Part shown: positions 8,082 to 9,959 of the stretch, piece after piece
How the letters are laid out: every line of letters starts with the position of its first letter
Numbering within the stretch: position 1 is the stretch's first letter
Assembly: GCA_938036435.1 (NCBI GenBank)
Contig: CALHPU010000064.1
Span: 1-64,000, forward strand
Length of the DNA: 64,000 nt
Direction: 5' to 3'
From: an uncultured Pirellulaceae bacterium
Lineage (GTDB): Bacteria > Planctomycetota > Planctomycetia > Pirellulales > Pirellulaceae
Translations under genes and position numbers: made by a program
Notes under the pieces: generated by a model
Database searches by the model: none
What the model saw: the letters and a program-made list of their open reading frames with translations, nothing else
Told to the model about the DNA's origin: nothing

Positions 8082-8117
8082 AAAAAACGGTCGCCCATTC
8101 CTGAGAAAGGGCGACCG
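8082..8117 (-). terminator. Rho-independent terminator downstream of the full-length HMA ORF
   Basis: CGGTCGCCC (8088-8096)/GGGCGACCG (8109-8117) stem with TTTTTT on the minus strand. Confidence 0.75.
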
Positions 8118-8149: not shown

Positions 8150-8530
8150 CTAAAGTTGAGTAGCAGAGAACCTATTGCTCGCCGCAGTCTCGATGGCCTT
8201 TTTGGCCGCTTCGGCGTCTACTTCATCGCCTTTTAGAATGACTTTGCCCAGTTCTGGAATTTCGACCTCTACACCCGGTAGAGCAGTGGCAAGCTCGTTT
8301 TTAATCGCGCCTCCACATCCGGCTCGTCAGGTCATGCCTTTTACGTCAAAGCTAACTGTCGTTAGCTCTTCACCAGTCGCTGGTGCTGTGCTGGAAGTAC
8401 TTCCCTCAGCAGTCGCCGCTGCTCCACCGCCATCGTTAGATGGAGCCGCAGTTTCACTTCCGCCACATCCAGAGACTGCCAGTGCGGCAGTTGCGGTTAC
8501 GGCAACTGCGAACAAGCTCAAAAATCTCAT
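8150..8530 (-). CDS. HMA-domain lipoprotein with in-frame TGA at a conserved Cys position (candidate selenoprotein, GMT-U-RAGC)
   Basis: MRFLSLFAVAVTATAALAVSGC lipobox, then VSFDVKGMT[TGA]RAGCGGAIKNELATALPGVEVEIPELGKVILKGDEVDAEAAKKAIETAASNRFSATQL*. TGA at 8327-8329; the same frame continues to TAG at 8150-8152; terminator immediately downstream. Confidence 0.7.
8286..8316 (-). promoter_or_regulatory. Candidate bacterial SECIS-like hairpin downstream of the TGA
   Basis: Minus-strand GUGG-AGGC-[GCGAUUAAAAACGA]-GCUU-g-CCAC folds as 8 bp with one bulged G and one G-U pair. Loop begins with G, 18 nt after the UGA. Confidence 0.45.
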
Positions 8531-8792
8531 GGTCTTCTCCACAAAGATAAAAAAATTGCAGCCCACGATTAGATTCGACGCTCGAAACGCAGCACTGACA
8601 GACAGTGTTGGTATCGATGGACTACATAACTAGATCTACTATAAGCGTCAAAGGGCTGGTGGAGGGGCAGTTGAAACGATTCTTTTGCTAAAAACAGTGA
8701 TGTATCGGAGAATTTCAGGTCTTCCGGGTAAATTGAGCCGCTTTTGGGTCAATTGGAACCATCGGCGCAGTTAATCTCGCGACGTGGATGCC

Positions 8793-8882: not shown

Positions 8883-9611
8883 CTAGCTATTTGTCGATGC
8901 AGCAGCTTCGCCAGCAGCAGCTTGTGCCTTTGTCAGCGCTTCAACAGCCGCTTTGTATTTCGCACGAGCGACGTTCAAACGGGCAGTCATTTCGCAGCAA
9001 GTTTCTTCGTCGCCTACGACGTACTTCATTTCCGCTCCACCAGCGGCCAGTTCTTTGGCCTTCATTGGGCAATTGCAGGCTTCTTCGCCAACGACGTAAG
9101 AAAGGCTAACTGAATTGACAGCCTCTTGGACCAGTTTCGTGTGGCTTGCAGCCTTTATCGGACAGCTACATTTTTCGCCAGCGATAGTTGTTGTTCCGGA
9201 TGCTTCACAAACACATGGCGTTGTATATGCGGCCAATGCAGCTTCTGTTTTCTCAACCAACGCGGTCATCGCTTCTGATTTGTCAGTGTAAGAAGTTTCC
9301 GCAACGACATAGTGAATTGGTGCACTGTGCTTCTCTGCAAGCGCCTGAGCCGAATGTGAACAGCAGGTTGATTCTTCGCCAACCTTATAGGACATTTTCG
9401 GTAGGGATGCCATTGCTGCTGAGATTGGGCATTCGCCGTCGCATGCTTCTTTGCCGCTACAACAAGCTTTAGCAGCACTGCCATCCATTTCGGCAGCCAT
9501 TGCTTTGGGTGATCTCGATTTGTCATCAGAACCTTCCTGAGCGAACGAGGAAGTGACGATGAGACACGCGACGATTGCAATACCGAGTGTTAGAGTGAAG
9601 AGTGATTTCAT
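8883..9611 (-). CDS. Secreted cysteine-rich protein with internal 'YxVGEExxCC' repeats
   Basis: Signal MKSLFTLTLGIAIVACLIVTSSFAQ. Repeats SYKVGEESTCCSHSAQALAEK, SYVVGEEACNCPMKAKELAAG, KYVVGDEETCCEMTARLNVA, plus a degenerate HYVVAETSYTDKSEAMTALVEK. Confidence 0.75.
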   Translation of the reverse strand: MKSLFTLTLGIAIVACLIVTSSFAQEGSDDKSRSPKAMAAEMDGSAAKACCSGKEACDGECPISAAMASLPKMSYKVGEESTCCSHSAQALAEKHSAPIHYVVAETSYTDKSEAMTALVEKTEAALAAYTTPCVCEASGTTTIAGEKCSCPIKAASHTKLVQEAVNSVSLSYVVGEEACNCPMKAKELAAGGAEMKYVVGDEETCCEMTARLNVARAKYKAAVEALTKAQAAAGEAAASTNS

Positions 9612-9959
9612 AGCTTCTCCAGAGGTTAAGGATTGTCGCATCTACATCAGGATGCTACAAAAAATTGAATGTGACCTGAAAACCAGCAAGTTAGCGGTTT
9701 AGGTCACTAGTGTATCGTATCAGAGTTGGGCAAAGAACTTGTTGTCAGGCCCCTAATTTCTTAAATTCATTCGCGAACAAGTTTGACTCCGATTAGAGTC
9801 AATTTTTACGTGGTAAAACGTCAAAAGTTCAAATTTGTTTTAGATTGCTGCGCATTTGGTTAGAATGAGCCTCGATGGCCAATTTTCACAGTTTTTGGCT
9901 ATCTGTCCACGACCCGAAAACTAGGCCCGCATTCAACTCAAGACAGCCATTTTCTTGCC

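Follow-up and report, generated by a model that had tools for sequence, protein, structure and literature searches.

A lipid-anchored HMA protein of Planctomycetota with a candidate selenocysteine at its first metal-ligand position

The window analysed here is a stretch of 64,000 nucleotides from an uncultured Pirellulaceae bacterium, and the gene of interest lies on its minus strand, as do all of the features described for it below. Its coding sequence (8150..8530, 126 residues when read through a TGA) starts at an ATG at 8530-8528, behind a Shine-Dalgarno-like GGAGAAG at 8534..8540. The original prediction held that one TGA interrupts this frame and that reading through it in the same frame completes an HMA protein, and the frame does stay open past the TGA to a TAG at 8152-8150. 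The TGA itself (8329-8327) is the only one in frame and immediately follows ...VSFDVKGMT, after which the frame reads RAGCGGAIKNELATALPGVEVEIPELGKVILKGDEVDAEAAKKAIETAASNRFSATQL and then the TAG. Read as selenocysteine (Sec), this codon (8327..8329) would supply residue 68 at the first HMA metal-ligand position (GMT-U), and the second ligand would be Cys72, four residues beyond, with a TGT codon at 8315..8317 that is itself a TGA (Sec) in UxxxU relatives. The resulting motif, U68-R-A-G-C72, confirms the placement at the first ligand Cys after GMT and the UxxxC spacing that had been proposed. Upstream, the codon of Cys22 (8465..8467) follows the lipobox AVSG and is the predicted lipidation site, G21 and C22 being invariant in alignment A1, and a Ser/Thr/Ala-rich linker joins this lipobox to the HMA part. 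An intrinsic terminator hairpin (9+3 bp, then T6) at 8088..8117 folds with −22.2 kcal/mol (z −4.8) and stands 3' of the full-length stop and not of the TGA, also as predicted. Rfam gave no match at the locus.

The surroundings of the gene do not point to a metal or a partner, as no neighbour is conserved across 20 family loci and only some (a few) same-genus loci have flanking genes in common; an operon partner was rejected on this ground. At 8883-9641 on the minus strand the window also encodes a secreted, Cys-rich protein of 252 residues in which YVVGEE..C.C modules recur and for which Pfam gives no hit. This protein occurs in 9 of the 28 genomes of the genus, mostly those with a UxxxU or UxxxC HMA lipoprotein, and its gene in these relatives is on other contigs or far from the lipoprotein gene. 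The co-occurrence may reflect shared ancestry only.

The assignment to the HMA fold draws on the family as well as on the single protein. Taken alone, the window protein matches Pfam HMA (PF00403) weakly, with an E-value of 0.016 and a score that falls short of the Pfam cut-off, and the same model matches all 12 of the aligned family members, at best with 6e-11. A single-sequence AlphaFold model predicts a beta-alpha-beta-beta-alpha arrangement with a domain pLDDT of about 80-86, in which the ligand loop follows strand 1 as it does in HMA domains. The Foldseek matches of highest probability (0.97-0.99) are the HMA domains of Ccc2a, ZntA, Atx1 and TTHA1718, with target-normalised TM scores of 0.62-0.66 and E-values of only about 0.05-0.09, and a family profile compared with the PDB returns MerP, CopZ, Atox1 and the HMA domains of Cu-ATPases. 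Sequence and model thus support a single-domain, MerP/CopZ-like HMA protein, with the domain at about residues 57-118 (8177..8362) by Pfam, the structure model and Foldseek.

Relatives were sought in 148 related genomes with stops read through, of which 20 gave a match, the majority carrying one or two TGAs, and then with a profile over the 243 genomes of the taxonomic family, where 208 gave matches whose weak end includes other HMA proteins. A contig scan with the window protein as query returned no relatives. The 60 genes extracted comprise 38 UxxC, 12 UxxxU, 8 UxxxC and 2 CxxxC motifs, and 58 of them contain an in-frame TGA. Across the 5220 codons of these 58 genes there are 70 TGAs, 58 at the first HMA ligand, 12 at the second and none elsewhere. 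Random disruption of the homologues, which the original prediction had named as evidence for a pseudogene, is therefore not what is seen, and with the relatives also under constraint we reject a pseudogene as a general explanation. The search among planctomycetes proposed at that time yielded Cys homologues (GMTCPSGC in G037 and G214, GMTCAGC in G075, GMHCEAC in G127) along with dozens of TGA homologues, so that coding is conserved on both sides of the UGA and Sec/Cys pairs exist, as is expected of a true Sec codon. Motif classes cluster on the gene tree (8 changes vs. 20.6 in shuffles), in which many forks are unresolved; the window gene is sister to that of G008 (99/98), among UxxxU and UxxxC rows. 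Similar UxxxU, UxxxC and UxxC lipoproteins occur in many other families of a phylum sample, and Planctomycetes bacterium K23_9 (CP036526.1), whose genome is complete, carries a UxxC member. Some members are built differently: in G015 (L138, contig C107), which also has a separate UxxxU copy, a UxxC HMA domain ends a longer frame that by eye resembles YceI in its upstream part. The HMA lipoprotein L190 (G346) is divergent, and its displaced ligand motif, ATUMTUPEG, contains two TGAs.

The distribution of the Sec elongation factor follows that of the TGA. Among taxonomic-family genomes with a listed small HMA hit, counted by hand from the listed matches, SelB scores over the cut-off in 61 of 67 TGA carriers vs. 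11 of 65 non-carriers (Fisher 6e-19), and at the genus level, a fairer count because related genomes are not independent, in 26/27 with TGA vs. 4/14 without (p 9e-6). The six carriers without SelB over the cut-off are the incomplete assemblies G000 (that of the window), G003, G023 and G051, together with G251 and G295, in the last of which a SelB-like fragment lies at the edge of a contig. G037 and G214, with Cys in place of Sec, are without SelB. The window's own assembly contains tRNA-Sec (70.3 bits, anticodon TCA) and selD (269 bits, G000:C60:27037-27951, L038); this selD sits in a frame of 766 residues, suggesting a fusion protein.

A recoding hairpin is clearest in the UxxC clade, where the stretches +15-21 and +25-31 from the UGA pair as a stem of 7 bp around a GU that is invariant in 33 sequences. 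In this stem 87.9% of cells are paired, compensatory changes occur in 5 of the 7 pairs (17 cells), no shuffle out of 500 does as well, and slid registers are only 29-46% paired, so by its sequence pattern it fits the expectation for a bacterial SECIS. Taking all TGA genes together, the 48 nt counted from the UGA are more stably folded than synonymous recodings of them (mean z −0.87, Wilcoxon 8e-7, a test that the kinship of the sequences inflates) as against a mean z of −0.07 in a control stretch. The candidate SECIS of the window gene (8286..8316, 10 interrupted pairs, −10.4 kcal/mol) begins 13 nt after the T of the TGA; it is no better than synonymous shuffles (z 0.21), and in a strict scan its best fold is without an unpaired G at the loop start. 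In its sister G008 the hairpin is clean, with 9 bp and a G in the loop, and the UxxxU/UxxxC clade yields no consensus SECIS structure in shared columns.

We consider that UGA codon 68 is decoded as Sec with a probability of roughly 0.88. The conserved TGA site, the Cys homologues, the co-occurrence with SelB, the tRNA-Sec and selD of the assembly and the covarying hairpin of the sister clade all bear out the reading of Sec in place of a ligand Cys. On this comparative support, tRNA-Sec and SelB would decode the UGA with the hairpin just downstream, and the protein would be exported and, judging from its lipobox, lipidated at Cys22. The HMA loop would then present the selenolate of U68 and the thiolate of C72 (in UxxxU relatives, a pair of selenolates), which may bind a soft metal ion, e.g., Cu(I), Hg(II) or Ag(I), to be scavenged or handed on at the cell envelope. 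Binding of soft metals at the envelope seems to us the somewhat better supported function of this lipoprotein, ahead of redox chemistry. Counted against the explanation as a whole are the failure to find selA and selB, the non-significant SECIS of the window gene, the want of a shared structure in the UxxxU/UxxxC clade, the HMA score of the protein alone, which is below the cut-off, the lack of a conserved neighbour, and a fusion that fits redox chemistry as well, which is discussed next.

The strongest competitor, though we regard it as unlikely, accepts the selenoprotein and takes its U/C pair to be a redox couple (selenenylsulfide/selenothiol, as a disulfide or peroxide reductase partner) and not a metal site. 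It would be in keeping with the observation that redox proteins make up most of the bacterial selenoproteins (PMC13188914) and with the G041 relative (L136), in which a single frame joins a UxxxU HMA domain to a DsbD N-terminal domain (DsbD_N), and the spacing of UxxxC and UxxxU is one residue (+1) longer than the CxxC that classical Cu(I) HMA loops have. However, HMA is a metal-binding fold, the solved structures matched are metal-binding domains or proteins bearing them, and the substituted positions are exactly those of the metal ligands, all of which speaks against a redox couple.

Considerably less probable is that the window's species has lost its Sec machinery, so that the TGA terminates and a recent relic makes a truncated lipoprotein of 67 residues. 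Neither selA nor selB was found in the window's own assembly, which is 89.75% complete, the best selB matches, two of which were checked, belonging to other translation GTPases or to CysN/C-like frames, and the window gene has no convincing SECIS. Constraint after the TGA is also modest relative to the nearest relative in G008 (pN 0.23, pS 0.46, over 23 codons). In favour of Sec, the codons 3' of the TGA give a lower pN than pS in 11 of the 11 pairs compared (0.01 vs. 0.17 for G248/G249 and 0.02 vs. 0.39 for G019/G022), these being simple ungapped counts, partly truncated, with the G020/G009 pair overrunning its true stops. A relic is difficult to reconcile with an intact tRNA-Sec and selD, with a frame free of further disruption, or with a terminator placed beyond the full-length stop. 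Furthermore, selB scores over the cut-off in 25 of the 28 genomes of the genus, and the three without it (G000, G003 and G023) are all 71-90% complete, below 90% in each case. Since selB is present in nearly every same-genus genome and selA in the majority, loss from the assembly is the likely and simplest reading of the absence. The original prediction had called for a search for the Sec genes and had named absence of selA, selB and selC as evidence against it; taken literally, the selA and selB part of that absence is what this assembly of about 90% completeness shows, although, to judge from its relatives, incompleteness is the likely cause, and tRNA-Sec and selD are present.

An error of sequencing or assembly at the TGA, or its decoding as Trp or Cys through a code change or non-specific readthrough, is hardly credible: the window itself comes from a single MAG, but the same TGA recurs in dozens of independent genomes (at the ligand site also in the single-contig G025 and G082), on which ground we reject sequencing error, rpsM within the window terminates in TGA, which is thus otherwise a normal stop here, on which ground we reject code reassignment, and SelB tracks the TGA carriers.

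It is also important to consider how this family relates to selenoproteins already described. Sec has been reported in a UxxU metal-binding protein (NF041115), in cation ATPases and in MerT (PMC13188914), and the GOS survey lists a “Mercuric transport protein MerP” selenoprotein, a rare marine family of 2 sequences with no Cys homologues in GOS (PMC2398784). NF041115 (UxxU_metal_bind, a putative mercuric-reductase-like metal-binding selenoprotein) is likewise small and HMA-like with Sec at the ligand pair, and is the best NCBIfam match for four more distant phylum members that were tested (40-53 bits). Its cut-off of 95 bits is reached neither by the window protein (16 bits) nor by the relatives (at most 53 bits), and the window family differs in being lipid-anchored and in its UxxxC, UxxxU or UxxC spacing in place of UxxU. 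The GOS protein, compared here by its description, shares Sec in a MerP-type (HMA) protein, whereas members of the window family are widespread among Planctomycetota and do have homologues with Cys. NF045683 (MerT_CopZ_Se), a MerT/CopZ fusion-like heavy metal transport selenoprotein, has an HMA-type domain, Sec and presumed metal transport in common with the family; it is a MerT fusion, unlike the single-domain window protein, and family members reach at most 33 bits against its cut-off of 375 bits. The Cys-containing HMA domains of MerP, CopZ and Atx1 (PF00403) have the same fold and the same position of the ligand loop, but are CxxC with Cys only, whereas the window family places Sec at the first ligand and often at the second; in the window gene's clade the two ligands also stand one residue further apart. 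The view that Sec in a lipid-anchored HMA protein would be unusual thus holds in part, as HMA-like Sec proteins have precedents in GOS MerP, NF041115 and NF045683, while the lipid anchor sets the window family apart from NF041115. Because these precedents exist and the scores fall far below the curated models, we treat the window family as a variant of the known HMA-like Sec proteins.

Sec machinery and selenoproteins have been reported in planctomycetes by a study whose main text is without mention of HMA proteins (PMC4807772), and a 2026 review mentions neither planctomycetes nor UxxxC or UxxxU motifs (PMC13188914). The large family of HMA selenoproteins that appears to run across the phylum is thus apparently uncatalogued, a comparison made against reviews, and it may have been mentioned elsewhere. 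Planctomycetota are thinly covered in the selenoprotein reviews consulted, and annotation that treats the TGA as a stop would truncate these genes ahead of the HMA domain. Tentatively, and with rather less confidence than for the single lipoprotein, we suggest that such proteins may be phylum-wide envelope metallochaperones that trap soft metals via selenolates, including a UxxxU site with two Sec residues on an HMA loop one residue wider, with selenium serving as a ligand and not as a redox catalyst. The natural series of C/C, U/C and U/U sites found in this family is well suited to testing selenium as a cellular metal ligand.
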